64,000 nt of DNA, taken from positions 62,001 through 126,000 of the forward strand of contig DYJC01000010.1 in assembly GCA_020723305.1 (NCBI GenBank). The letters are read 5' to 3'. The notes under the pieces are model-generated. The model worked only from the letters and a program-made list of their open reading frames with translations, had not been told where the DNA came from and did no database searches. How positions within the stretch are numbered: the stretch's first letter is position 1; each line of letters begins with the position of its first letter. The stretch comes from Desulfosudis oleivorans (GTDB taxonomy: Bacteria > Desulfobacterota > Desulfobacteria > Desulfobacterales > SURF-7). Position numbers and translations under genes: made by a program. Below, one piece after another: positions 48,632-63,447 of this stretch.

Positions 48632-50962
48632 TTATCCCATGGGATAATTTTCCGTCAGGAACCAGATTCCGCAAGGGCATGCTCCTGCACAGAAGCCACA
48701 TCCAATGCACCGGGAATCATCTACAACATATTCATATTCACCATTTCCAAGATCTTTTCTGCTGATGGCCGCCTGGGGACAGATTGAGATACAGATGCCG
48801 CAGTCTCTGCAATTCCCACAGGAAGAACACTGGGCTCCGCAATGGTCCACATCATCAAAACAGGTGATTCGCGGATCAAAATATTCCAGGCGGATCCGGT
48901 CTGTATCAATCATAACTGTTTTTTCAATAACCGGCTCCTGACCTTTCAGAATCTTATTGATAGCTTCAGCGGCTTTTCGGCCGGCACCAATGGCATCGGT
49001 CAGAAGTCCGGGTTTGACAATATCACCAACCGCAAATATTTTGGAATCCGAGGTTCGATAAAATGCATCCACCTTGACAAACCCGCGATCAATTTCAACA
49101 CTTTCCGGAAGAAATTCCGTATCCGGAACATCCCCGATGGAAATCACAACCGTATCCGCTTCCAGCAATTCTCCGGTTGTCAGCAAAACACCCTTTTCCG
49201 TTATTTCCTGGGTAAAGCAGGGCCATTTGAAAACAGCTCCGCATGCTTCTGCTTCTTCTCTTTCTTTTCCAAAGGATGCCGGCCTTTGAACATCGATGAG
49301 CGTCAAACTTTCCGCTCCAAGTCGACTGGCCTCCGTTGCAACGTCACATCCAACATTTCCAGCCCCGATAATGACAACCTTTTTCCCAGGTTCAATTTCA
49401 TTGGTTTTGGCACGCGCCAGAAAATCCATTGCCGTAATCATGCGCTCTTTTCCCGGGACAGGCAGTATTCTCGGTTTCTGGGCCCCGGCAGCAACAACCA
49501 GAAAATCATAATCTCCCTTTATTCTTTCCGTTTCCTGTCTTCCAAGCTTCTGTTTCAGATGAATATGGGGAATCACCCTGGATATCCGGTCAAGTTCTGC
49601 TGTCAAAACCTCTTTCGGAATCCGGCTTTCCGGTATCACCGAGGCGATCTTTCCGCCAATGGTTTTTTCCATATCGTAAATCACCGCTTCATGTCCGCTC
49701 TTACGAAGCTGCCAGGCAATTGAAATCCCTGCCGGGCCGCCTCCAATAACCGCTATTTTCTTCCCGCTCTGTGCTGGAAAATCAGGCATTTTTGCTTGAA
49801 TACTGGCTCTTCCCAACTTCGAAATATCAATGGGCATCATGGATCCAATCTGACGCGTACAGGCCTGCATACAGGGATTGGGACAGAGATATCCACAAAT
49901 GGTGGCTGGAAATGGTGTGTATTCCAGAGCAAGATCCACAGCCTCATCAATACGTCCCTCCCGAACAAGCCGCCATCTTTCATGAACCGGAATTCCACTC
50001 GGACAGGTTCCTTCACAAGGGGCTTTATATTTCTGATTTTCCCAGACCGGAACAAATCGTCTCAATTCACCCGTCGTGATTAAAGAAATCGGACTTCTGT
50101 CCAGGGTTGTCAAATCCCCGATCAGACCTCCCGGACCGAGTTCTTTGTCCCAGATATCGGTTCGAAAAGATGCCATTGACCTTTTCTGAACACCACCCTT
50201 TTCCTGAGGCGAACGAGCGACCAGCAACTGCCATTCTTCTCTTTTCAGAAGAGTTTCCAGAACAGCTTCCTTGTGAATCTGTGCCAGATACTCTTTCAGG
50301 TTTTCCGTGAACCAATACCAATCCCCATCTGAAATCGGTATCTGTTTTGCGTCCGCAGCACTGTATCCTTTATGAGGACCACGGAAAAACAACTTGCCGC
50401 CTACCATACCAACCAGGGGCCGGTATCCGAGAATGTTCTGGGGTGTCTGGGGGTCGATACCGCAAATAACCGCAATTCCTCCAGCCATGAATTCACCAAA
50501 ATAGTCTCCGACCGATCCCAAGACCCAGATTTCAGGGGGAACAAACCGCGGGTTGCTTTTGGTCATGGTCATTCCACGTGCACCGATATTTCCGGCAACA
50601 TAGACCTTGCCCTGGGCCATGGCATTGGCAAGACCGTTTCCTGCATTTCCATGAACAATAATTTTGGAGCCTGCATTCAACCAACCCACATCATCCGAAG
50701 CCGGCCCCATGATTTCTATCACCGTATTTGGGAACCCGAGAGATCCTACCCGCTGACCCGTATGACCGGTAATTTTTACATGAATGGATGCATCTCCTGC
50801 TTTCCATAACCGGCCGCCGATACCATGCTGGCCAAAAGCGTCAACCTCAATGAAACGCTCCCCATTTTCTACTGCTGCCTGGATTTTCTCTTCCAGAATA
50901 CGGGATTCAATTCGAATTCCCTTTTCTTTCCCGTCTATCTTATAATATGTCTGACTGCTCAT
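48632..50962 (-). CDS. Glutamate synthase GXGXG domain fused to GltD-like flavoprotein
   Basis: A 776-residue fusion. Residues 1-240 are the GXGXG beta-helix domain that forms the C-terminus of ordinary GltB (GQHGIGGRLWKAGD, GNAGNGLANAMAQGKVYVAGN). Residues about 310-400 carry the CEGTCPSGIP, CGYLCPNPCMQACTR iron-sulfur region of GltD. Residues 405-700 have FAD (VIGGGPAGIS) and NAD (VIIGAGNVGCD) folds. The C-terminus holds two [4Fe-4S] ferredoxin motifs, CGNCRDCGICISICP and CIGCGFCAGACPCG. It would bring electrons to the FMN subunit at 51024-52658. GGAGAAG precedes the ATG. Confidence 0.9.
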   Translation of the reverse strand: MSSQTYYKIDGKEKGIRIESRILEEKIQAAVENGERFIEVDAFGQHGIGGRLWKAGDASIHVKITGHTGQRVGSLGFPNTVIEIMGPASDDVGWLNAGSKIIVHGNAGNGLANAMAQGKVYVAGNIGARGMTMTKSNPRFVPPEIWVLGSVGDYFGEFMAGGIAVICGIDPQTPQNILGYRPLVGMVGGKLFFRGPHKGYSAADAKQIPISDGDWYWFTENLKEYLAQIHKEAVLETLLKREEWQLLVARSPQEKGGVQKRSMASFRTDIWDKELGPGGLIGDLTTLDRSPISLITTGELRRFVPVWENQKYKAPCEGTCPSGIPVHERWRLVREGRIDEAVDLALEYTPFPATICGYLCPNPCMQACTRQIGSMMPIDISKLGRASIQAKMPDFPAQSGKKIAVIGGGPAGISIAWQLRKSGHEAVIYDMEKTIGGKIASVIPESRIPKEVLTAELDRISRVIPHIHLKQKLGRQETERIKGDYDFLVVAAGAQKPRILPVPGKERMITAMDFLARAKTNEIEPGKKVVIIGAGNVGCDVATEASRLGAESLTLIDVQRPASFGKEREEAEACGAVFKWPCFTQEITEKGVLLTTGELLEADTVVISIGDVPDTEFLPESVEIDRGFVKVDAFYRTSDSKIFAVGDIVKPGLLTDAIGAGRKAAEAINKILKGQEPVIEKTVMIDTDRIRLEYFDPRITCFDDVDHCGAQCSSCGNCRDCGICISICPQAAISRKDLGNGEYEYVVDDSRCIGCGFCAGACPCGIWFLTENYPMG

Positions 50963-51023
50963 GGTCTTCTCCGGAAAACAAACCGCTGAACGATGCTGTA
51001 TTTTTTGATTTCATCTCCAACAG

Positions 51024-52658
51024 CTAAACTACATATTGAATACTCAACCTCTCCGATGCATGATAATCACTGATCCCGAGTGCATCCGACATACCGATGG
51101 GCAAAGAGGTCGACCGGCCTAGCGGTGCGACTATTTTTTTCAATTCCGTATCAAAACTCAGGAAAACATCCACAACCCGCTGGGCGACATCCTCGGCATT
51201 GAGGCGCCTGTATAGTCTTGGATCCTGAGAAGTGATTCCTTTGGGACATAGCCCCACATTGCAGATATTGCATCTATCTGATTCAGATCCAAGACAACCG
51301 GCTGCAGCCTGCATGATATATTTACCGGTCTGGACTCCGCTGGCACCCAGCATAATAAGAGCGGCTGCATTTGCTGCCAGGTTTCCGGTTTTTCCCACAC
51401 CGCCTCCGGCAAACAGAGGAATCTCATTTTGTTTGCCCAGTTTCACCAGATTCAGGTAGCAATCCCTTAGATTGCTGGCAATCGGGTGCCCCATTGTGTT
51501 CATGGAAACATTGTATGCTGCACCGGTTCCGCCATCTTCACCATCTATGGCAAGGCCGGCAGCATAATCGTTTCGCGTCAGATTGTTCAACACTGCCAGA
51601 GATGTGGATGATGCTGAAATTTTCGGATAAACCGGTACTCGAAATCCCCATGCCATATACATAGACTGGGTCATTTTTGCCACAGCCTCCTCAATCGAAT
51701 ATTGAGTCTGATGCGTCGGTGGACTGGGCAAACTGACACCTGTTGGTACACCCCGGATGGCGGCGATCAGCTTGTTCACCTTATACCACATTAACAATCC
51801 ACCATCTCCAGGTTTTGCTCCCTGACCGTATTTGATTTCTACGGCGCATGGATCCACTTTCATATCCGGAATCGCATGGATAATTTCATCCCAGCCAAAA
51901 TAACCGGAGGCGATCTGCAAAATTACATATTGTAAAAATCTGCTTCGAAGAAGCCTGGGTGGGCAGCCTCCTTCTCCGGTACACATTCTTACCGGCATTT
52001 TCATCTCTTCATTCAGGTATGCGACGCCCATCTGAAGACCTTCCCACATGGTAGGAGAAAGCGCACCAAAAGACATTCCACCGATCACCAGGGGATAGAT
52101 TTCACGAACCGGTGGAATCCATCCATTTGCCTTGAGATGTTTGAGGTTGTCTTCAGGAGACAGAATCCTTCCCAAAAGCGTACGCAATTCAAATTCATGC
52201 CGCCCGGCATCCAGAGCAGGATCCGTAAGCATGGAAATTCGAATAAATTTTATCTGGTCCAGAATACTGCCGACAACATTCCGTCGTCCTCCCCGGCGTC
52301 TTGGCTGTCCTCCCTGGTTCTGATGATATATCAGTTTATCCGCCTCATCGCTCCTGGCCGGAATAATGGCATCATTCGGACACACCAAGGTACACATGCC
52401 ACATCCTACACAGGCATGCTGGGGATCTGTTTTCTGACGAATGCCGTGATATATCTTAAAAACATTCGAGGATGTCTGTTTGATATCCATACTGGTCTCA
52501 ACAACTCTCTTCCGAAAAACGCCAAGTTCCAGGGCATGAACAGGGCACACTGCCGTGCAACTACCACAGAGCGTACACTTTTCCTTGCTCCACCGGATTT
52601 GCCACGGCATATCTTTAATGCTTAGTGTTGATGGTATAACGGGTCTGTTTGCTGACAT
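51024..52658 (-). CDS. Glutamate synthase FMN-binding subunit with N-terminal ferredoxin domain
   Basis: A 544-residue protein of the archaeal-type GltB2 class. Residues 20-110 are ferredoxin-like (CTLCGSCTAVCPVHAL and CVGCGMCTLVCPNDAI). The rest is the FMN-barrel synthase domain: PLVIGGMSFGALSPTMWEG near residue 190, KPGDGGLLMWYKV, and IDGEDGGTGAAYNVSM near 372. The cysteines in AAGCLGSESDRCNICNVGLCP near 460 match those binding the [3Fe-4S] cluster. It lacks the glutaminase and GXGXG domains, which are encoded on either side. It overlaps the glutaminase gene by 37 bases, and GGAG stands before the start. Confidence 0.93.
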   Translation of the reverse strand: MSANRPVIPSTLSIKDMPWQIRWSKEKCTLCGSCTAVCPVHALELGVFRKRVVETSMDIKQTSSNVFKIYHGIRQKTDPQHACVGCGMCTLVCPNDAIIPARSDEADKLIYHQNQGGQPRRRGGRRNVVGSILDQIKFIRISMLTDPALDAGRHEFELRTLLGRILSPEDNLKHLKANGWIPPVREIYPLVIGGMSFGALSPTMWEGLQMGVAYLNEEMKMPVRMCTGEGGCPPRLLRSRFLQYVILQIASGYFGWDEIIHAIPDMKVDPCAVEIKYGQGAKPGDGGLLMWYKVNKLIAAIRGVPTGVSLPSPPTHQTQYSIEEAVAKMTQSMYMAWGFRVPVYPKISASSTSLAVLNNLTRNDYAAGLAIDGEDGGTGAAYNVSMNTMGHPIASNLRDCYLNLVKLGKQNEIPLFAGGGVGKTGNLAANAAALIMLGASGVQTGKYIMQAAAGCLGSESDRCNICNVGLCPKGITSQDPRLYRRLNAEDVAQRVVDVFLSFDTELKKIVAPLGRSTSLPIGMSDALGISDYHASERLSIQYVV

Positions 52659-53752
52659 ATCGTAATCTCCTGGCGATCCGGTCCTACAATAACAGTATCC
52701 AGATACATGGGTTGAAAATCCTTGCTTTTATCACGGTCCGGAATCACAGCATCCAAGCCACAAATTTCTGATGAAAAAGCATAAAAACCGGGATGACCGC
52801 CCACTACTCCCGGCCTCAATTTTTTCCGGTCCTGGGCCATAAAAACAGAATGGTCCGGCAAACACCCGATAACACAGTTCGGACCGTCAATAATCATTCT
52901 GCGGCACGTTTGTTTCAGTTGTTTTAAAAACTCAGTGCTTGGATGGTCGTCAAGGTTTTCCCCCTGAAGTGGTGTGATAATATGTTTATATGCATCAACC
53001 CCTAATCCAAGTTTTTTAATCGTATAATGAAGAATATGGGTAAACACCTCTGAATCGGATTGGAATCCGGTATATCCTGGAAACCCCCGTGAAACCAGGT
53101 ATTCTTTTATGGGCACAAAAGCGGTATTTTCACCATTTGTCATGGTTGAAAAACCTTCTACAAAAAAAGGATGGCAGGCATACAGATTAATCGCATAGTT
53201 TGTATTCTGCCTTCCCTGAGCCATAATTACCCGCGCTTTTAAATCTTTGCGATCAAGCCCAAGATAATGCCCAATGGTAAGGGGATCTCCGATCTCTTTC
53301 AGCATGATCACATCCGGCCAGAATGAAAAGACAATCATATCCTCTTTTTCCTGACCCATTTCACGAAGCTGAAGACGGATCCTCATCAATTTACCCCCAA
53401 GCTCTTCAAAGCTTAGCCCTTCCCATTCTGATGGATACTCATATGCTCTGATTAAGTAAACATCCCTTGTCGGCACACCATGAATCGATTCTTTCGGAGC
53501 CTTGATGGATAACTTGAATTTCGTCATGAACCCGAGGTTCATCATAAACGTATCCAGACGTTTCAATCCTTCTGTTGTAAAAATACCGGACAGGATCGGT
53601 GACTCCTTGATATCCTCAAACGGGCCGGCAAGGTCACGCAGAAAAAGACCAACCCCGGAACCATCATGCCCCTCTCGCATGACATCCAGTGCTTCGAGTG
53701 CAACCATCGGCGATTGTGGCGTTTCACTGGTTAACGCAAATAAACGACACAT
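52622..53752 (-). CDS. Glutamate synthase glutaminase subunit
   Basis: A 376-residue class II (Ntn) glutamine amidotransferase, the archaeal-type GltB1. The start MCRLFALTSETPQSP at 53752 puts the nucleophilic Cys at position 2 after Met, and AAGGAG stands upstream; a longer frame to 53785 would bury it. REGHDGSGVGLFLRDLAGP near residue 25 and a MTNGENTAFVPIKEYL loop near 205 with the FQSDSEVF segment are family marks. It hydrolyses glutamine and channels ammonia to the FMN subunit encoded immediately downstream. It is the first gene of the cluster. Confidence 0.92.
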   Translation of the reverse strand: MCRLFALTSETPQSPMVALEALDVMREGHDGSGVGLFLRDLAGPFEDIKESPILSGIFTTEGLKRLDTFMMNLGFMTKFKLSIKAPKESIHGVPTRDVYLIRAYEYPSEWEGLSFEELGGKLMRIRLQLREMGQEKEDMIVFSFWPDVIMLKEIGDPLTIGHYLGLDRKDLKARVIMAQGRQNTNYAINLYACHPFFVEGFSTMTNGENTAFVPIKEYLVSRGFPGYTGFQSDSEVFTHILHYTIKKLGLGVDAYKHIITPLQGENLDDHPSTEFLKQLKQTCRRMIIDGPNCVIGCLPDHSVFMAQDRKKLRPGVVGGHPGFYAFSSEICGLDAVIPDRDKSKDFQPMYLDTVIVGPDRQEITICQQTDPLYHQH

Positions 53753-54022
53753 GTTATTCTCCTTGTATGAACCATAAGACCTCAATTGCTGTCTTTAAAA
53801 AATTTCAGGTTACATCAAAACCCGTGAGCGTGAGCTATTAAAGCAATGAATATGCCAAGCAAAGAATAATTTGCTTTTAACTATCTGATATCAATATACT
53901 TTAGAAGATACAGGGGGTCGATCTTCACAATTCAAATCTGTTCCCAAAAAAAAATAAAATACCATTTTGTAAAAAATACCCCCTGACAAAATTACAAAAA
54001 TGTAAATAATGAATAAAGCCAA

Positions 54023-55930
54023 TCATGTATGTTCCATGGTAACCCGAAGAACTTCCTGATAAGTAGTAACTCCGGCAAGCAATTTCTTGACTGCATTTTC
54101 ACGCAAAGTCACCATCCCCTCTTTCCGAGCCTGGATACCAAATGCTGTCAGGTCTGTTTCTGCGGTTGTCAGTTTCTTCAGTGCATCCGTATAGGGAAGC
54201 ACCTCGAAAATCGCAGCTCTTCCTCGATACCCTGTTCCTCGGCACTTGGTGCATCCTTTCCCCCGAAACAGTGTGATTTTTCCTTCCTTTTTTAAGTTGA
54301 TGCTCATGGCTTGTTTCAACTCATCGATATCCATCTCAAAAGACTCCTTGCAAGTACTGCAAATTTTTCGCATCAGGCGTTGGGCCAATATCCCGATAAT
54401 GGTTGTCTGAATTAAAAAAGGCGGTACGCCAAGATCCAGCAATCTCGTTATGGTCGATGGTGCATCGTTGGTGTGAATGGTGGAAAAAACGAGGTGACCG
54501 GTCATGGCCGCTTGTATTGCATTGCCGGCTGTTTCAAGATCCCTCATTTCACCAATCATGATGATATCCGGATCCTGTCTTAAAATCGTTCGAAGAATGG
54601 TCGCAAATGTAATACCAACAGCCGGTTGAACCGCAATTTGATTAAAGTCCTCATGGATCATCTCGATAGGGTCTTCAATGGTTGTGATGTTCACTTCCGG
54701 TGTCGAAATCTGTCTCAGTGTGGAATACAGTGTTGTGGATTTGCCGCTGCCTGTAGGACCGCATATTAATATGATTCCATGCGGTCTTTTGATAAATTGG
54801 TTATAGTGGCCCAGATCCGATTTTGTAAAGCCAAGCTCGTCCAGCCCCTGAAACAGAATATCCGGATCCATAACCCTCATCACCACTTTTTCACCAAAAG
54901 CTACCGGCAGTGTCGAAACACGAATCTCAACCTCGGTTCCCTCTTTATCCATCTTGATCCTGCCGTCCTGGGGACGTCTCTTTTCCGCAATATCCAGCCT
55001 GGAAAGTGTTTTTATCCGGCTAACAATCGCAACATGAACCTTTTTCGTTATTTTATAAACCGTATGAAGAACGCCATCAATCCGCATTCGTACAACCGTA
55101 ATATCTCTTTTGGGCTCAATATGGATATCGCTGGCCCGCTGATCAAACGCATAAACAAAAAGATGATTTACCGCATTCACAATATGCTGATCATCTAACT
55201 GTACTTCATCGGCTGATTTCAGCCGGACATATTGTTCCAGGTTTCCAAGATCAATGGCTGTTGCATCAAACAGCCCTTCTGCTTTACTTATGGATCGCTT
55301 AAAGCCAAAAAACTCATCAATGCATTTGATAATGTCTGCCCGCGAACTTACCACTGCCTTGACCTTCATTTGACTTGCCCGGGACAGGTCCTCCAGCGTC
55401 TCTGTATTAAAGGGGTCCGGGGTGGCTACAGTCAAACATCCGTCCTGAATTTCGATGGGAAGAACCTGATGCTTCAGGGCAAAGTTCCGTGGAATGGTTG
55501 TTGTGACGACATTCAAATCCAGTTTCAGCGGGTCTATTTTTTTAAATGGTATCCCCCAATCATTGGCAAGCGCCTGAAAAATAGATTCTTCGTCCAATTT
55601 TTCATGAATTTTATCTGCCCGATGCAGTTTTAATGAAACAACCACATCTATAATTGTGAAAGGTCTTATAATTTTAAGCCCGGTAGCACCAGAGTGGCTC
55701 TTGGCGCGAACTGCGGTCAGACGATTGATCACACTGCTCTTTTTTTTCAGAACCTCATTAATCTGATTCTGAGAGAGCAATCCTGCGTTTAAAAGAGTCT
55801 GGATTACTCTTTCATCTGAAAATGGATCATTAGGAGGATTCGTTCTATCTGAATATTCTTTTGATTGAGGCATATCTTGTTCACCTGAGGGTTTTATTTT
55901 TTTCATCAAAAACGGTTCCACCTGTTTCAC
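54023..55930 (-). CDS. PilB/GspE-family assembly ATPase
   Basis: A 635-residue hexameric ATPase for type IV pilus or type II secretion. A disordered N-terminus of about 35 residues precedes an MshEN-like domain (about 40-225, QTLLNAGLLSQNQINE). The ATPase has DIHIEPKRD near residue 280, Walker A CGPTGSGKST near 395, an Asp box (TTIEDPIEM), Walker B IIMIGEMRDLET near 463 (Met where Ile is usual), a His box (TGHLVFSTIHTN), and a CSTC...CTKC zinc element near 545. The GTG at 55930 has AAGGTG eight bases upstream; later ATG starts are possible. pilC lies far away at 19829-21040. Confidence 0.9.
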   Translation of the reverse strand: MKQVEPFLMKKIKPSGEQDMPQSKEYSDRTNPPNDPFSDERVIQTLLNAGLLSQNQINEVLKKKSSVINRLTAVRAKSHSGATGLKIIRPFTIIDVVVSLKLHRADKIHEKLDEESIFQALANDWGIPFKKIDPLKLDLNVVTTTIPRNFALKHQVLPIEIQDGCLTVATPDPFNTETLEDLSRASQMKVKAVVSSRADIIKCIDEFFGFKRSISKAEGLFDATAIDLGNLEQYVRLKSADEVQLDDQHIVNAVNHLFVYAFDQRASDIHIEPKRDITVVRMRIDGVLHTVYKITKKVHVAIVSRIKTLSRLDIAEKRRPQDGRIKMDKEGTEVEIRVSTLPVAFGEKVVMRVMDPDILFQGLDELGFTKSDLGHYNQFIKRPHGIILICGPTGSGKSTTLYSTLRQISTPEVNITTIEDPIEMIHEDFNQIAVQPAVGITFATILRTILRQDPDIIMIGEMRDLETAGNAIQAAMTGHLVFSTIHTNDAPSTITRLLDLGVPPFLIQTTIIGILAQRLMRKICSTCKESFEMDIDELKQAMSINLKKEGKITLFRGKGCTKCRGTGYRGRAAIFEVLPYTDALKKLTTAETDLTAFGIQARKEGMVTLRENAVKKLLAGVTTYQEVLRVTMEHT

Positions 55931-56120: not shown

Positions 56121-59100
56121 ATGTTACACATGAAAAATATAAAACCGGATGAATCGTCAGATGATCCGGAATTATCCTTTAAGGTGTTCCATGATTTAAT
56201 GTCCAAACGCGTTGGGAAAATCCTCCTGGTTTCCAGCCTCTATGATGCCTTTATTATGGAAGAAGAAGGCCGGCTTGCAGAAAGGATCATCCATGAATAT
56301 CGTGGACTGAATTTGTCTCGCCCCCCGAGAATCACCTGGGTTTCTTCCATTGATGAAGCGCTCACGGTATTGTCAAAAAGTAAATTTGACCTTATCATCA
56401 CGATGCCCGTAAGGGATACTGCTGATCCATATATCCTCCGTCGAAAAATTCAAAAAAAGTTTCCGCAAATTCCAATGATTCTTCTTGTCCATGACACCGG
56501 TATTCTGTCATTCGCTCCCGAGCCCAGACAAAATGATTCAACCTGCCGGCTGTTTGTTTGGAGCGGAAACACAGATCTTCTCCTAGCCATGATCAAAAGT
56601 ACTGAGGATCAGATGAACGTTTACCATGACACCAAGCGAGCCATGGTAAGGGTGATTATTTTGGTTGAAGACTCTCCTGAATACCGATCGTCCTTATTGC
56701 CCCTCCTGTATCGGGAAATTGTTACCCAAACGCAGAAAATAATGGACGATTCTCTTAATGAAGAACACCGTATCCTGAGAATGAGAGCCCGCCCCAAAAT
56801 TCTGATCGCTGAAAATTATGAAGAGGCTGAAATCCTGTTTCAAAAATATAAACCATATGTATTAAGTGTTTTTTCCGATGTTCGGTTTTCCAGAAACGAC
56901 AACCTCGATGACCAAGCCGGATTTCATTTGTGTGAAATGATTAAAAAGGAAAAACCCGGACTTCCTCTCCTTATGCTCAGTTCCGATGATTCCAATCGTC
57001 AAAAGGCGCTGGAAATAGCCAATGTTTTTCTGAACAAAAATTCTTCCTCTCTTCACATGGACATTCGAACATTCCTTGAACAATATCTGGCTTTCGGAGA
57101 CTTTATCTTTAGGCTTCCAAACGGCGAGGAAGTAGCCAGGGTTTCCAGCCTTTACCAGATGGAAAAAGCGATTCCTTCCATTCCGGATGAATCCATATAT
57201 TTTCATGCAGAAAAGGATCATTTTTCAACCTGGCTCATGGCTCGTTCTGAAATTCAGCTTGCATCAAAACTCCAACCGGTGCATACCACTGATTTTTCAA
57301 ATACAAGAGAATTAAAACAATACCTTGTGGATTGCCTTCGAAAAAAACGAAAAAGCAGACACCGTGGCGTGATCACCGATTTTTCATCAGACGGATTCTA
57401 TCCTGATTTGGATTTTACAAAAATCGGAAGCGGATCTCTTGGTGGAAAAGGCAGAGGTCTTGCGTTTATGTCATCCCTTTTGGGAAACAACCGTTCTATC
57501 TGGAAAAAATTTCCATCCGCACGAATCACGATTCCAAAAACTCTTGTAATTACAACTGAATATTTCGATTCTTTTGTCTCAAACAATCATCTGAAAATGT
57601 TTTCGAAAAACTCGGAAACGGATCTGGCTATTGCAAAAAAATTTCTGGAGTCAGACCTCCCCGAAAACCTTGTGAATAGTCTAACAACGTATTTATCCTG
57701 TGTCAAACAGCCACTTGCCGTCAGATCTTCCAGCCTTCTCGAAGATGCACAGTTTCAACCATTTGCCGGTATTTATAAAACCTACATGATCCCGAACAAT
57801 GATCCCAAAATTTCCATCCGGTTAAATCATCTGATTCGTGCAATCAAACTGATCTATGCTTCAACTTATTTTGAAGCTCCTAAATACTATTCAACAAACA
57901 CCTCCCACCGGGTGGAAGAAGAAAAAATGGCAATCGTCATTCAGCAAATCACCGGAAAGGAATATGGTGGATTCTATTTCCCTCCGATTTCAGGGGTTGC
58001 TCAATCCTATAATTTCTATCCGGTTTCTTATATGAAGCCGGAAGATGGGGTTGTCCATATTGCATTTGGCCTCGGAAAAACCGTTGTAGAAGGAGGCGCC
58101 TCTCTTCGTTTTTCTCCACGATATCCTCAATTTCTGCCCCAATACTCTACCGTGGATGATATCCTCAAAAACTCGCAAAAACTTTTTTATGGACTGGACA
58201 TGTCCCATCTTCCGGATGAATTTGGAATTTCTATACATGAAGATGGTTTTGCCGAACTTGATTCAACCCTCACACAGCTCGAAATAAATGATTTTGAATT
58301 GACCATAGAAGCCCATAGCGCGCTGCGAAATATGTTCAGCAGTTACCTCTCCGAGGATCATCGAATTCGTGACACCTATCATGCCAACACCCAGCATGTC
58401 GTATCCTTTTTCAATATTTTAAAATACAATGAATACCCACTCCCGGATCTTTTAATCGCGCTATTGGAAATCGGACAAACCGGAATGGGAGCTCCGGTTG
58501 AAATTGAATTTGCCGTTACTTTCCCTGCTGAACATGATCTGAATGAGAAAAGGAAAGGACCGGAGCTGGTTATTCTACAGATCAGGCCTATGGTGATCAA
58601 TAGACGAAATATCAATATTCAGATTGAACAAAAAGAGATAGAAAATTCCTTCTGCTTTTCCGACAATGCCCTTGGGAACGGAATCATAACTGAAATATAT
58701 TCAATTATTTTTGTAAAACCCGAGTCATTTGATCCTGCCCGGACAGTAGAGATTGCTTCTGAAATTGGAAAATTGAATAAAATCATGATGGAGAAAAAAG
58801 AAAAATATCTTTTAATCGGGCCGGGAAGATGGGGATCAGCCGATCGATGGCTCGGCATTCCGGTGAGCTGGAAAGATATTTGCGGGGTAGCTGCCATTAT
58901 TGAAACCACTTCTGAGCTGCTAACGGTCGACCCGTCTCAAGGAACTCATTTTTTTCATAATATCACATCACTGGGAATCGCCTATCTCACGGTTGGAAAC
59001 AGTGGCCAAAGCTTTTTGGATAAGGACTGGCTTAAATCGTTACCTGTTCAAAATGAAACCACTTTTATTTGTCATTGTCGAGTACAAAACCCGTTAATAA

Positions 59101-59156
59101 TCAAAATAGATGGTAAAGCATCTTGTGCTGTAATTTTAAAACCACCTTCCATATAA
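56121..59156 (+). CDS. Receiver-like / PEP-synthase ATP-binding-domain protein of unknown function
   Basis: A 1011-residue protein. Residues about 30-330 contain two CheY-like folds: KILLVSSLYD to PMILLVHD, and VIILVEDS to LMLSSDD with an Asp in SVFSDVRFS near residue 257. Residues about 430-860 resemble the PPDK/PEP-synthase N-terminal ATP-grasp domain: GSGSLGGKGRGLAF near 436, the triad-like LAVRSSSLLEDAQFQPFAG near 535, and VILQIRPM near 820. The C-terminus has GPGRWGSADRWLGIPVSW and PSQGTHFFHN near 955. I see no phosphohistidine swivelling domain (GGxxSHxAI) or PEP-binding barrel, so it is unlikely to be a normal PEP synthase. It is 42 bases upstream of gdhA. Confidence 0.75.
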   Translation: MLHMKNIKPDESSDDPELSFKVFHDLMSKRVGKILLVSSLYDAFIMEEEGRLAERIIHEYRGLNLSRPPRITWVSSIDEALTVLSKSKFDLIITMPVRDTADPYILRRKIQKKFPQIPMILLVHDTGILSFAPEPRQNDSTCRLFVWSGNTDLLLAMIKSTEDQMNVYHDTKRAMVRVIILVEDSPEYRSSLLPLLYREIVTQTQKIMDDSLNEEHRILRMRARPKILIAENYEEAEILFQKYKPYVLSVFSDVRFSRNDNLDDQAGFHLCEMIKKEKPGLPLLMLSSDDSNRQKALEIANVFLNKNSSSLHMDIRTFLEQYLAFGDFIFRLPNGEEVARVSSLYQMEKAIPSIPDESIYFHAEKDHFSTWLMARSEIQLASKLQPVHTTDFSNTRELKQYLVDCLRKKRKSRHRGVITDFSSDGFYPDLDFTKIGSGSLGGKGRGLAFMSSLLGNNRSIWKKFPSARITIPKTLVITTEYFDSFVSNNHLKMFSKNSETDLAIAKKFLESDLPENLVNSLTTYLSCVKQPLAVRSSSLLEDAQFQPFAGIYKTYMIPNNDPKISIRLNHLIRAIKLIYASTYFEAPKYYSTNTSHRVEEEKMAIVIQQITGKEYGGFYFPPISGVAQSYNFYPVSYMKPEDGVVHIAFGLGKTVVEGGASLRFSPRYPQFLPQYSTVDDILKNSQKLFYGLDMSHLPDEFGISIHEDGFAELDSTLTQLEINDFELTIEAHSALRNMFSSYLSEDHRIRDTYHANTQHVVSFFNILKYNEYPLPDLLIALLEIGQTGMGAPVEIEFAVTFPAEHDLNEKRKGPELVILQIRPMVINRRNINIQIEQKEIENSFCFSDNALGNGIITEIYSIIFVKPESFDPARTVEIASEIGKLNKIMMEKKEKYLLIGPGRWGSADRWLGIPVSWKDICGVAAIIETTSELLTVDPSQGTHFFHNITSLGIAYLTVGNSGQSFLDKDWLKSLPVQNETTFICHCRVQNPLIIKIDGKASCAVILKPPSI

Positions 59157-59198: not shown

Positions 59199-60548
59199 AT
59201 GAATTCAATACTAGACAAAATAAAATCAAGAGATCCCGGAGAAAAAGAGTTTCACCAGGCCATCAGCGAAGTCATGGATTCCATCATGCCCGTACTTGAC
59301 AAAAATCCGGAATATCGACATGCCGGAATCCTGGAAAGAATTACAGAGCCGGAGCGAACCATTATTTTCCGCGTTCCATGGATGGATGACCAGGGTAAAA
59401 CCCATGTTAACAGAGGCTTCCGAATCGAAATGAACAGCGCTATCGGTCCTTATAAAGGCGGATTACGATTTCATCCCTCTGTGAATTTATCCATCCTTAA
59501 ATTTCTGGCCTTTGAGCAGGTATTTAAAAATGCGTTGACTACCCTCCCCATGGGAGGCGGAAAAGGCGGATCTGATTTTGATCCCAAAGGGAAATCCGAT
59601 AATGAAGTAATGCGCTTTTGCCAGAGCTTTATGTGCGAGCTTTTTCGTCATATCGGACCGAACACGGATGTTCCTGCCGGCGATATCGGTGTTGGAGCCC
59701 GGGAAATCGGATTCCTATTTGGCATGTATAAAAAACTCAGCAATGAGTTTACCGGTGTACTCACCGGAAAAAGCCTGAACTGGGGAGGAAGCCTGATCCG
59801 TCCGGAGGCAACAGGATATGGATGCGTATATTTTGCTTCAGAAATGCTTGCAACCAAAAACACAACCATGAAAGGGAAAAAGTGTCTGGTATCCGGATCT
59901 GGAAATGTTGCACAGTTTACAACGGAAAAAATTCTGTCTCTTGGAGGCAAGGTATTGACTCTTTCCGATTCCTCAGGATACATTTTTGATGAAAAGGGCA
60001 TTGATGAAATCAAGCTTAACTTTATCAAAACACTGAAGAACAAAAAAAGAGGAAGAATCAAAGAGTATGCAGACCAATACAAGGAAGCTGTTTATACGCC
60101 TGTTGATTCAAAATCGGATTGTAACCCTCTCTGGAATCATAAAGCGGATTGCGCATTTCCATGTGCTACAGAGAATGAAGTGAATGAAAAGGATGCTGCT
60201 CATCTGGTTCAAAACGGAATCATTCTTCTGGCTGAAGGAGCAAATATGCCGACTACTCCAAATGGAATTGATGTATTGACCAATAGCCATGTTCTGTATG
60301 CGCCCGGTAAAGCTGCAAACGCCGGAGGTGTTGCTGTGTCAGGACTGGAAATGTCACAAAACAGCATGAGGATTCGATGGCAGCGGGAAGAGGTAGACGA
60401 AAAACTTCGTCTTATCATGAAAAATATTCACAAGACCTGCCTTGATGCAGCTGAATCCTATGGTACACCCGGGAACTACATGAAAGGTGCAAACATCGCC
60501 GGATTCGTGAAAGTGGTTGATGCAATGCTTGATCAGGGGCTGGTATAA
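59199..60548 (+). CDS. gdhA: NADP-type glutamate dehydrogenase
   Basis: A 449-residue hexameric glutamate dehydrogenase. The substrate-binding part has PYKGGLRFHPSVNLSILKFL, the catalytic-lysine segment LPMGGGKGGSDFDPKGKS near residue 112, and DVPAGDIGVGAREIG near 157. The nucleotide domain has LVSGSGNVAQFT near 230. Length and motifs match the small NADP-dependent class. GAGGGA precedes the ATG. It provides direct ammonium assimilation next to the GS regulators. Confidence 0.94.
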   Translation: MNSILDKIKSRDPGEKEFHQAISEVMDSIMPVLDKNPEYRHAGILERITEPERTIIFRVPWMDDQGKTHVNRGFRIEMNSAIGPYKGGLRFHPSVNLSILKFLAFEQVFKNALTTLPMGGGKGGSDFDPKGKSDNEVMRFCQSFMCELFRHIGPNTDVPAGDIGVGAREIGFLFGMYKKLSNEFTGVLTGKSLNWGGSLIRPEATGYGCVYFASEMLATKNTTMKGKKCLVSGSGNVAQFTTEKILSLGGKVLTLSDSSGYIFDEKGIDEIKLNFIKTLKNKKRGRIKEYADQYKEAVYTPVDSKSDCNPLWNHKADCAFPCATENEVNEKDAAHLVQNGIILLAEGANMPTTPNGIDVLTNSHVLYAPGKAANAGGVAVSGLEMSQNSMRIRWQREEVDEKLRLIMKNIHKTCLDAAESYGTPGNYMKGANIAGFVKVVDAMLDQGLV

Positions 60549-60552
60549 TAAC

Positions 60553-63447
60553 TTGATAAACACAAAAAAGGCACCTATTCTATTTCCAGTTGAGATCGCT
60601 GAACATCAAGACAGAAAATGGAAAACTTTCTGTAATAAGATGGAAGAATCCAATCTCCTGATCCCGGAATCTTCAACAGTTGTATGCGATCTCAAAACCG
60701 CCTTTTTGTTCAGTGATTTTATTTTTAGCAATCTGACCCGAAATCCTCTGTTGTTTAAAGAACTGCTTGTTAATAACTGTCTCTACCGTGCCTATACAAC
60801 AGGTAGTTACGCTAGAGATCTTTCTCATATCCTACAAAACACTTCTGATGAAAATCAGATCGCCGAAAAAACAAGTCATTTCCGATGCCGCGAAATGATC
60901 CGTATTGCTTTTCGAGACCTCACGGGCTATGCAGATCTGTCTGAAACCATGTCTGATCTTTCTGCCTTTGCGGATGCTTGTATTGATGGGGTCTTTTCAA
61001 AACTATATGATCAATTCTCACTTCGATACGGCATTCCGAAAAATCAGTTGGGGAAAAATCAAAATATTGTTGTTGTGGGTTTAGGAAAACTGGGAGCAAA
61101 GGAACTCAATTTTTCTTCTGACGTTGACCTGATGCTTGCATTTCCAGAAGATGGTTTTACAAGTGGTAAACAAGAATCCATTACAAATCTTGAATTCTTT
61201 TCTCTTCTGTCCCGGGCATTTCTCAAAATCTTTGCCGGATCCTCCTCTGCCGGTATTATTTTCCGGGTTGATCTCCGTTTGAGGCCATTTGGTGAAAACG
61301 GTCCTTTGATAACAAATTTTAATTTTTTAGAGGAATATTACGAAGCTCAGGGAAGAGAATGGGAAAGGTATGCCTTAATTAAAGCGAGAGTGGTAGCTGG
61401 AGATCAGACAGCAGGTCAGCACTTGCTCAAAAGGCTAAATCCATTTATCTACCGGAGATATCTTGATTACAACGCTTTTGAATCCCTGCGCGAAATGAAG
61501 CAGAGCATCGATTTTGAAATCCAGCGCAAAGGATTTCAGGGAAACATTAAACTGGGACCCGGAGGAATCCGGGAAATCGAATTTTTCGGACAGGCTTTTC
61601 AATTAATCCGGGGCGGGGTCTTGCCGTTGCTTCAGGAACCATCCATATTAAAGGTTCTAAATACACTGGTTGAAGAAAAATATATATCTCCGACTACCCG
61701 GGATGAGCTGACCAACGCATATCTTTTTCTACGCAACACAGAACACCGACTCCAGGAGTTTGATGACCGACAGACCCATTCTCTTCCAACAGAAGAAACA
61801 AAGCTTTTTCTCCTCTCCCTTTCTCTCGGTTTTTCAGATATCGAACAATTTTCCCGTCAATTGAATGCCCATATTAAAAATGTTCATGATCATTTTACCC
61901 AGATACTTTCAACTGCTGATCAAGAGCAACCTGTTTCAGACGGGAAAAAAGTACTATCGGGAATTTGGGAAAACCTTTTTGAGCCAAAAGATGAAGAGGC
62001 TATTCTTCTTTCAGCCGGATTCCAAAAACCTTCCGACATTCTTAAACAAATTATCGGCCTGCAAGAAGACACGGCAACCAGATCTCTGAGCAGAGATGGC
62101 CGCAGGAAGCTTGATCAGCTTATCCCACGAGTCCTCGAAATTACCGGAAAATCTGAACAGCCGGATCTTTCATTTTTTCGTATTGTAGAACTCATCAAAG
62201 CAATTGAACAGAGAACCAACTATCTTTCTCTGCTAATTGAAAATCCCGGTGCCTTGAAACAACTCGTGAGCCTCTCCATTTCCAGCCCATGGATCATCAA
62301 GTTTCTCACCCAGCATCCGGTTTTGCTGGATGAACTGCTGGATACCAGAATTCTTTACACTCCTCCTGATCGCAAACAATTGACTATCGAGCTTGAAAAA
62401 AAACTGGAATCCGTTCCTATTGACGACCTTGAACTTCAGATCGAACAATTATGTATTTTCAAACAAATCAACACCCTGCGGGTTGCCGCAGCAGACATCA
62501 GTGCTAACTATCCGCTTATGCGTGTAAGTGATCACCTGTCTGATATTGCGGAGTTGATATTAACTCAGGTTTTTAACCTGTCTTATCATCATATTGGTAA
62601 AAAATATGGATATCCAAGTTGTTCACCGGATATTAAAAACAGCAAACAACGGTTTGCTGTGATTGCCTATGGAAAGTTAGGTGGCATTGAACTAGGATAC
62701 GGATCTGACCTCGATATGGTTTTCCTTCACGGAGCAGCACCAGGCAAAACATTTGGAGGAAAATTTCAACCGATTGATAACAGTCAATTTTATACCCGAC
62801 TCGGTCAACGGATTATTCATATCCTGACCACCCATACCCGAGCAGGCAGGTTATATGAAATTGACATGAGATTAAGGCCCAGCGGGAGTTCCGGGCCTCT
62901 TGTCAGCCACATCGATTCATTCCGTGAGTATCAAGCGAATAATGCATGGACCTGGGAACATCAAGCTCTTGTCCGCGCCCGTTTTATTTGTGGAGACCCT
63001 GCGATCTCAAATCTGTTCGAAATAATTCGAAGAGAAACGCTTATGAAAAAAAGAGATCTATCAGAATTGAAATCAGAAATAAGGACTATGCGAGAAAAAA
63101 TACGGAAAGCACAAGGGATTTCTGAACCTGGCAAGTTTCACCTGAAACAGGGCAAGGGCGGAATCATCGATATTGAGTTTATCGTACAATATCTTATCCT
63201 GGCAAATGCTCATCAACATTCAGGGCTTGTGAAATGGTCTGATAATGTCCGGCAACTTGAAGCGCTTGCTCAAACCGGGATTCTCGAAAATAAAACCTCC
63301 CATTTATTAAAGCAGGCCTACCTGACCTTCCGATCCAGTATTCATCATCTGCATTTACAGGACCAACCACCTGTTGTGGATTATCCCGACCTCCAGGCAA
63401 TCGGCGCCACTGTTGCTGCAATATGGAAAAATTATTTTATCTCTTGA
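60553..63447 (+). CDS. glnE: Glutamine synthetase adenylyltransferase/adenylyl-removing enzyme
   Basis: A bifunctional regulator of about 964 residues that adenylylates and deadenylylates glutamine synthetase. The start is placed at a TTG at 60553, five bases after the gdhA stop; a frame open further upstream overlaps gdhA. Two nucleotidyltransferase domains are visible: LGKLGAKELNFSSDVDLMLAF near residue 195, and YGKLGGIELGYGSDLDMVFLH near 710. Each is followed by an Arg-rich helical region. It faces glnA, whose tyrosine site is retained, and is cotranscribed with gdhA. Confidence 0.95.
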   Translation: MINTKKAPILFPVEIAEHQDRKWKTFCNKMEESNLLIPESSTVVCDLKTAFLFSDFIFSNLTRNPLLFKELLVNNCLYRAYTTGSYARDLSHILQNTSDENQIAEKTSHFRCREMIRIAFRDLTGYADLSETMSDLSAFADACIDGVFSKLYDQFSLRYGIPKNQLGKNQNIVVVGLGKLGAKELNFSSDVDLMLAFPEDGFTSGKQESITNLEFFSLLSRAFLKIFAGSSSAGIIFRVDLRLRPFGENGPLITNFNFLEEYYEAQGREWERYALIKARVVAGDQTAGQHLLKRLNPFIYRRYLDYNAFESLREMKQSIDFEIQRKGFQGNIKLGPGGIREIEFFGQAFQLIRGGVLPLLQEPSILKVLNTLVEEKYISPTTRDELTNAYLFLRNTEHRLQEFDDRQTHSLPTEETKLFLLSLSLGFSDIEQFSRQLNAHIKNVHDHFTQILSTADQEQPVSDGKKVLSGIWENLFEPKDEEAILLSAGFQKPSDILKQIIGLQEDTATRSLSRDGRRKLDQLIPRVLEITGKSEQPDLSFFRIVELIKAIEQRTNYLSLLIENPGALKQLVSLSISSPWIIKFLTQHPVLLDELLDTRILYTPPDRKQLTIELEKKLESVPIDDLELQIEQLCIFKQINTLRVAAADISANYPLMRVSDHLSDIAELILTQVFNLSYHHIGKKYGYPSCSPDIKNSKQRFAVIAYGKLGGIELGYGSDLDMVFLHGAAPGKTFGGKFQPIDNSQFYTRLGQRIIHILTTHTRAGRLYEIDMRLRPSGSSGPLVSHIDSFREYQANNAWTWEHQALVRARFICGDPAISNLFEIIRRETLMKKRDLSELKSEIRTMREKIRKAQGISEPGKFHLKQGKGGIIDIEFIVQYLILANAHQHSGLVKWSDNVRQLEALAQTGILENKTSHLLKQAYLTFRSSIHHLHLQDQPPVVDYPDLQAIGATVAAIWKNYFIS

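Follow-up and report, generated by a model that had tools for sequence, protein, structure and literature searches.

The window analysed here, a stretch of 64,000 nucleotides of Desulfosudis oleivorans (assembly GCA_020723305.1, contig DYJC01000010.1, positions 62,001 to 126,000 of the forward strand), harbors on its + strand at 56121-59156 an open reading frame (ORF) coding for a protein of 1011 amino acids (aa). The ORF was taken from the ORF list of the window and is no chance frame, since a sequence search identified 45 relatives of its product in other records, with 38-93% identity. Its translated product comprises two CheY-like receiver folds (REC1 and REC2), a linker, an ATP-grasp domain and a C-terminal swivel-like, probably phosphohistidine, domain. 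Located 42 bp downstream is gdhA (59199-60548, + strand), which encodes a NADP-specific glutamate dehydrogenase (GDH) of 449 aa (NF006929; Bitscore: 749), which is the proposed partner of the 1011-aa protein; no other GDH was found in the genome at e-value <= 1e-20. A preliminary description of this DNA had already delimited the ORF and remarked on its position beside gdhA-glnE, a nitrogen link which proves to be much stronger across genomes.

The search for conserved neighbours which that description recommended detected a GDH gene by tblastn within 3 kb of the enzyme gene in 32 of 46 loci, namely the 45 relatives and the window; an earlier count based on ORF calling (28/46) had overlooked GDH genes where the locus is GC-rich or the contig ends. 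In a sample of 247 Bacteroidota genomes, a full-length member of the family is present in 34 (e-value <= 1e-150), with a GDH within 3 kb of 35/44 full-length and 9/11 short copies, and 26 of the 34 genomes hold a GDH-linked full-length copy. The enzyme is carried by 103 of the 119 genomes sampled from the order of a Dysgonomonas genome, presumably the Bacteroidales, and the 40 best-scoring of the 103 contain at least 70 copies; 32 of the 70 copies listed are GDH-linked, in 24 of the 40 genomes. Among the Desulfobacterota, a GDH lies within 4 kb of 17/25 more distant copies, corresponding to 17/24 genomes. Fifteen of these distant relatives, when aligned, share 25-28% identity over the core (the ATP-grasp and C-terminal domains) and retain the GPGRWG and S-x-G-[ST]-HFF motifs, while those whose N-termini were read carry N-termini other than that of the window protein. 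By our estimate, assuming two GDH genes, a target of ~7 kb and a genome of 4 Mb, chance would place a GDH beside about 0.3-0.5% of copies.

The arrangement of the two genes varies between enzyme-GDH, GDH-enzyme, convergent and divergent orders and arrays such as GDH446-enzyme992-GDH453-enzyme1002 (locus L136), and because of this variation the two genes seem to have come together on several occasions, as opposed to descending as a single operon. The 77 partnered GDHs are furthermore split over the two deep classes of GDH, with 55 in one and 22 in the other. The genomic link between enzyme and GDH is well supported. A more elaborate arrangement was observed on two contigs (G193:C7 and G196:C105; loci L048 and L051), where two GDH genes are interspersed among genes for three kinds of the enzyme (open frames: 1009-1067, 629 and 1063 aa). 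Many genomes of the Bacteroidales sample, moreover, contain two paralogues of ~1000 and ~1160 aa, and in several of these one paralogue stands beside each of two GDH genes.

Co-occurrence was also evaluated independently of gene position. In the Desulfobacterota, a GDH (e-value <= 1e-40) is present in 27/27 enzyme-positive genomes, five of which hold the full-length family and 22 distant relatives only, as against 7/20 enzyme-negative genomes (Fisher p = 5.5e-7, which ignores kinship). Across four sets, every enzyme-holding genome looked at contains a GDH (40/40, 35/35, 23/23 and 40/40). The enzyme-negative genomes examined at this GDH threshold were 10 from the Bacteroidota and, from the Desulfobacterota, the first 20 listed of 121; genomes were classed as negative when no match was found at e-value <= 1e-60 or 1e-150 with a few best candidates scored per genome, such that some relatives may have been missed.

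The structure of the 1011-aa protein was predicted with AlphaFold2 (mean predicted local distance difference test score (pLDDT): 82.4; predicted template modelling score: 0.71) from an alignment of 37 sequences, the window protein and 36 of its 45 relatives. The other nine, which are partial, split or N-terminally divergent, were omitted from this alignment (A1), and three of the 45 from a second (A2). Two CheY-like folds are discernible in the model at aa ~31-150 and 175-328, and a solved tandem-receiver structure (3luf) aligns to aa 31-325. REC1 (aa ~31-150; 56211-56570, + strand) is regarded as a pseudo-receiver on the basis of predicted secondary structure, the 3luf alignment and residue counts: at positions 95-97, which follow the third strand and where the acceptor would be expected, no common Asp occurs among 56 sequences of at least 940 aa each. 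REC2 (aa 175-328; 56643-57104, + strand) contains the complete response-regulator set, with the acidic pair E183/D184, the acceptor D253 (56877-56879), S287 and K306. Among the same 56 sequences, D253, S287 and K306 are each present in 56/56 and D184 in 55/56. The predicted REC2 matches solved single receivers with Z-scores of 13-14, and the Pfam receiver model matches at aa 226-307, under its cut-off (24.4 versus 30.2 bits). The protein is thereby predicted, from fold match and conservation, to combine one working receiver with one pseudo-receiver; the preliminary description had recognised both folds, but the phosphorylation residues are kept only in the second. The linker that follows (aa 340-406; 57138-57338, + strand) resembles the C-terminal part of DUF5752, with a Pfam score of 19.4 bits that lies below the cut-off of 23.

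The ATP-grasp domain (aa ~430-828; 57408-58604, + strand) had been attributed to the PPDK/PEP-synthase type, and this attribution is borne out by Pfam (PF01326, PPDK_N; aa 439-832; e-value: 2.9e-36), by fold match and by residue alignment. The predicted domain aligns with rifampin phosphotransferase (RPH; 5hv1) at a Z-score of 26.1, while the NCBIfam models for phosphoenolpyruvate (PEP) synthase (PEPS) and related enzymes match parts of it, all far below their cut-offs. Sequence searches of Pfam, NCBIfam and the PDB revealed no PEP barrel in the 1011-aa protein, in agreement with the preliminary description. Five other PPDK_N proteins are encoded in the same genome, all of which match the ordinary phosphohistidine domain PF00391. 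Residues K443, R535, E796 and Q820 line up with conserved ATP-grasp positions of the PEPS-like proteins of this genome, and among 89 distinct cores, with gap cells omitted, are invariant (K443 in 88/88, R535 in 89/89, E796 and Q820 in 87/87), as are R903, W904 and H943 (86/86 each). The three cores without H943 comprise two that are cut at contig ends (L032 and L053) and one with a frame break (L047), while the single short-form row gapped at K443 is probably a 555-aa form (L148) for which the start codon was set late. In RPH, the phospho-carrier is His825, and resistance was abolished by mutation of Lys22 or Arg117 but not by loss of Glu297, a Mg ligand (PMC4844700).

The C-terminal domain (aa ~843-1009; 58647-59147, + strand) carries two motifs, GPGRWGS and PSQGTHFFHN, which had been noted as conserved-looking and are strongly conserved among the relatives. 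The former (aa 900-906; 58818-58838, + strand) retains G900, G902, R903 and W904 in 86/86 cores that reach it, and the latter contains His943 (58947-58949, + strand), the proposed phospho-carrier, within S-x-G-[ST]-H-F-F. The domain matches no Pfam family, PF00391 included, and a swivelling His domain had been described as missing. This is probably wrong, judging by fold comparison. The domain was predicted alone (aa 836-1011; 43 input sequences) with a pLDDT of 88.7, and in a VIA-align ranking of 998 re-aligned chains only phosphohistidine-domain proteins occupy the first 13 rows, with Z-scores from 7.5 down to 5.8. These include rifampin phosphotransferase (757-867), pyruvate phosphate dikinase (PPDK; ~383-532) and the N-domains of Enzyme I, with the His swivel domain of RPH as the best match (5fbu/5hv1; Z-scores: 7.5/7.3). 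The comparison with PPDK and RPH that had been proposed also yields alignments of the whole model spanning both the ATP-grasp and the His domain, with aa 420-1009 on 4-467 of PEPS 2ols (366 residues aligned), aa 431-1009 on 8-511 of PPDK 1dik (349 residues) and aa 420-1009 on 3-867 of RPH 5hv2 (375 residues), where the ranges give the first and last aligned residue only; the best row covering the ATP-grasp alone (5hv1) aligns 281 residues. In the predicted model, His943 opens a helix (943-950) between two strands (923-929 and 954-958), which we take to be the place of the catalytic His in PPDK and RPH.

Several results weigh against this assignment. The VIA-align rows from the 14th onward (Z-scores <= 5.7) fall within 1 of the lower His-domain rows, a tie by the rule of the tool, and scores of 5.8-7.5 lie in the range where VIA-align warns of mere common arrangements, values below 8 not being decisive by the standard of the tool; many of the rows past the 13th (apical domains of the PA/transferrin-receptor type and of chaperonins, LD-carboxypeptidase and aconitase) presumably belong to the same SCOP 'swivelling beta/beta/alpha' fold. 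A plain Foldseek search with the C-terminal model returned no significant match, the best (e-value: 0.05) being an unrelated protein. Profile comparison with hhalign likewise gave a probability of 0.4% when 40 of 43 C-terminal rows were set against 9 PEP-utiliser rows, and of 0.2% when 57 of 61 were set against 26 rows, as compared to 0.1-0.3% for unrelated controls. The canonical GG.TSH loop is absent from the domain, which has S-x-G-[ST]-H in its place, and in a MAFFT alignment it is GRWGS that pairs with the canonical His loop, rather than SQGTHFF. The MAFFT pairing was rejected because, given the canonical topology of the His loop, the model has the required strand-loop-His-helix-strand succession at 923-958, and GRWGS is not directly followed by a helix. 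On balance, a divergent phosphohistidine domain is the most likely reading of the predicted fold and one that we consider probable, given the adjacent PPDK-type ATP-grasp, the topology and the invariant His. A cryptic catalytic-His domain, to which the preliminary description had pointed as a finding that would contradict it, is accordingly probably present, by fold prediction only. As sequence comparison does not reveal the His domain, the 1011-aa protein is classed as dikinase-like, a new variant by its domains rather than an established member of the superfamily.

The core is combined with different N-termini in its relatives. Forms of ~1000 aa carry the two receivers, and forms of ~1160 aa an additional unannotated region ahead of them, recognised by eye from its 'ELNCLY...' motif. 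A region of this type precedes the core on its own in a 914-aa form (L155), a front of ~190 aa with no Pfam match is found in a 768-aa form (L156), and forms of ~870 aa carry a KaiC-like domain, read from the letters, which lacks a P-loop and has no Pfam match. Seven forms of 555-589 aa have no N-terminal addition. The short forms match the family profile over the ATP-grasp and His domain only, from position 374-407 onward in 11 copies, with which the Pfam result for the one short form checked agrees. Because the N-termini are interchangeable, the core probably serves as the output part of a signalling protein.

The extra region, read by eye as 'ELNCLY...IP.GW.FP..C.A.I.Y', forms part of the enzyme in some genomes, whereas in others a similar region is encoded by a neighbouring gene (L155 1318-4059, L038 4411-7902, L150 3724-4200 and L050 5993-6925), and in one case sits with a LuxR-type DNA-binding domain. 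The KaiC-like N-termini, which begin TG...LD.....GDNVV in relatives L160, L161, L162, L158 and L090, may represent a pseudo-KaiC sensor.

We propose, with a probability of roughly 0.45, that the 1011-aa protein is a signal-controlled dikinase-type phosphotransferase dedicated to GDH. Signals would reach the N-terminal receivers, or the other N-terminal domains in relatives, and gate the core, the ATP-grasp of which would bind ATP and phosphorylate His943 of the swivel-like domain, yielding AMP and inorganic phosphate (Pi). The mobile domain would then present the phosphorylated His943 in trans to an acceptor, which is most likely GDH or otherwise a GDH-linked molecule, and the activity of GDH would be covalently and reversibly altered in response to the nitrogen, carbon or energy state, as that of glutamine synthetase is by GlnE. 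The computations establish the ORF, its conserved residues, the predicted folds and the genomic association with GDH, from which we infer that His943 carries the phosphate, that AMP and Pi are formed, that GDH accepts the phosphate, and in which direction and with what effect the control would act. The preliminary suggestion of an ATP-dependent phosphotransferase with an unnamed target under two-component-like control fits well with this proposal, though the lack of a phosphohistidine domain that accompanied it does not. No recognisable acceptor-binding domain occurs in the core, in which the ATP-grasp ends at ~828 and the C-terminal domain begins at ~843, whereas the dikinases described in two reports carry a further acceptor-binding domain (PMC4844700, PMC12167813). 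As the short forms have no domain besides the ATP-grasp and the His-type domain, a separate molecule should act as the acceptor, with GDH the obvious candidate. The core family is found in most sampled Bacteroidales and recurs in Ignavibacteria, Desulfobacterota and other phyla, and somewhat more tentatively it may constitute a widespread family of protein-directed dikinases, in which an ATP-grasp and His-swivel core with plug-in sensor domains phosphorylates GDH covalently.

Some observations argue against a dedication to GDH. No GDH was found within 3 kb in 14 of the 46 loci, of which two stop at the enzyme gene and another two have short flanks, and 16 of the 40 best-scoring Bacteroidales genomes show no close GDH linkage. 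Enzyme-negative Bacteroidota mostly hold a GDH (20/20 at e-value <= 1e-20; 8/10 others at 1e-40), from which it follows that GDH does not need the enzyme; the occurrence data fit a one-way dependence, in which the enzyme needs GDH and not the reverse. Comparison of partnered and unpartnered GDHs, which is confounded by GDH phylogeny, revealed no phosphosite; residues H92 and Q239 (numbering of the window GDH) differ in frequency between the two groups, with the same confounding, and no conclusion is drawn from them. The linker of the long forms (328-430) could itself bind an acceptor, and the pairing of one enzyme family with two distant classes of GDH is as compatible with a metabolite common to both as with a common protein target.

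The core might accordingly phosphorylate a metabolite around the GDH reaction, such as 2-oxoglutarate, glutamate or a co-substrate, the link to GDH then being metabolic and not one between proteins. The dikinases described in two reports act on small molecules (PMC4844700, PMC12167813), and the spread of the partner over both GDH classes is in keeping with this, but there is no recognisable third domain for a small acceptor, the short forms being two-domain only, and sensor-type N-termini and tight pairing in arrays are uncommon for enzymes of catabolism or anabolism, such that we regard a small-molecule dikinase as unlikely. A protein that senses ATP and alters GDH activity by contact, with the C-terminal domain as its docking part, would account for the pairing with GDH without any catalysis and for the lack of detectable sequence kinship to phosphohistidine domains; the ATP-grasp residues and the invariant His are, however, kept in all cores that reach them, which points to catalysis and renders a non-covalent regulator a rather doubtful explanation.

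A reversed phosphorelay, in which ATP-charged His943 phosphorylates Asp253 of its own chain or another receiver, the protein thus acting as an ATP-grasp-type sensor kinase, would make use of the fully conserved D253, S287 and K306 of REC2 and of the presence of this receiver in one chain with the probable His carrier. Receivers are missing from relatives that share this core, and the receiver can therefore not be the general acceptor, leaving this relay improbable. The match of the ATP-grasp to PEP synthase models, finally, might indicate an ordinary PEP synthase or a PPDK remnant with a misassigned function, a possibility that had been raised as one that would contradict the preliminary description. 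Ordinary PEP synthesis was rejected in view of the missing PEP barrel, the PEPS models scoring far below cut-off, the five other PPDK_N proteins with PF00391 in the genome and the missing PF00391 match of the protein itself, and we give it hardly any credence.

Compared to known systems, the dikinase-type phosphotransferase proposed here shares with PEP synthase and PPDK the order of ATP-grasp and His domain and the conserved ATP-grasp K, R, E and Q, at 14-23% identity in structure-based alignment, but no pyruvate/PEP barrel was found in it and its chain ends at the His-type domain. The His swivel domain of the phosphotransferase system (PTS) Enzyme I passes phosphate to another protein, and is charged by PEP, not ATP; Enzyme I N-domains are among the 13 top fold rows, though Enzyme I lacks an ATP-grasp. 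GlnE, the chemistry of which is nucleotidyl transfer, is a modifying enzyme likewise encoded beside nitrogen assimilation genes, but it is unrelated in fold and chemistry and the likeness is one of analogy. RPH and the HpeHI/CreHI/PpsAB dikinases have an ATP-grasp of the same family and, like the window protein, no PEP barrel; they differ from it in that the latter has a receiver front, a link to GDH and no recognisable substrate-binding domain. RPH also has its His at the C-terminal end, but the rifampin-binding domain that lies between its ATP-grasp and His domain is not present in the window protein. The His loop S-x-G-[ST]-H furthermore differs from the T/SxxGGxxxH motif reported for swivel domains (PMC12167813).

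The ORF is surrounded by a nitrogen island. Downstream of gdhA lies glnE (60613-63447, + strand, start codon approximate; NF008292; Bitscore: 1079), encoding the glutamine synthetase adenylyltransferase, followed on the opposite strand by the final part of a gene for glutamine synthetase, which was recognised from the ORF letters without a family search. The succession of gdhA and the enzyme gene, then glnE and the glutamine synthetase end, forms a suggestive parallel, by analogy. On the - strand, glutamate synthase is encoded over three ORFs (48632-53785) for an amidotransferase-like, a flavin mononucleotide-domain and a GltD/ferredoxin-type subunit, the amidotransferase-like ORF being assigned by reading only, with no NCBIfam match. 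Between these and the enzyme gene, a TfpB/PilB-like type IV pilus/type II secretion ATPase gene is found (54023-55930, - strand; below the cut-offs of the models), a relative of which occurs at the same place in locus L017.

Ammonium enters metabolism by two routes, one of which is GDH, and the control of this enzyme in bacteria is usually attributed mainly to its expression. A literature search, with most subscription journals outside its coverage, found no publication linking GDH with an enzyme of this kind. If the proposal is correct, an ATP-consuming partner of GDH, linked to it across phyla in varied gene orders, would constitute a new control point and an unrecognised on/off switch for the ammonia-assimilating GDH. 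Reversible inactivation of GDH has been reported in Bacteroides, and the enzyme family would provide a testable candidate for this phenomenon. Should GDH be the acceptor, the enzyme would represent a new kind of protein-modifying enzyme, the GDH counterpart of the GlnE/glutamine synthetase pair and, to our knowledge, the first ATP-driven dikinase-type enzyme with a protein acceptor.

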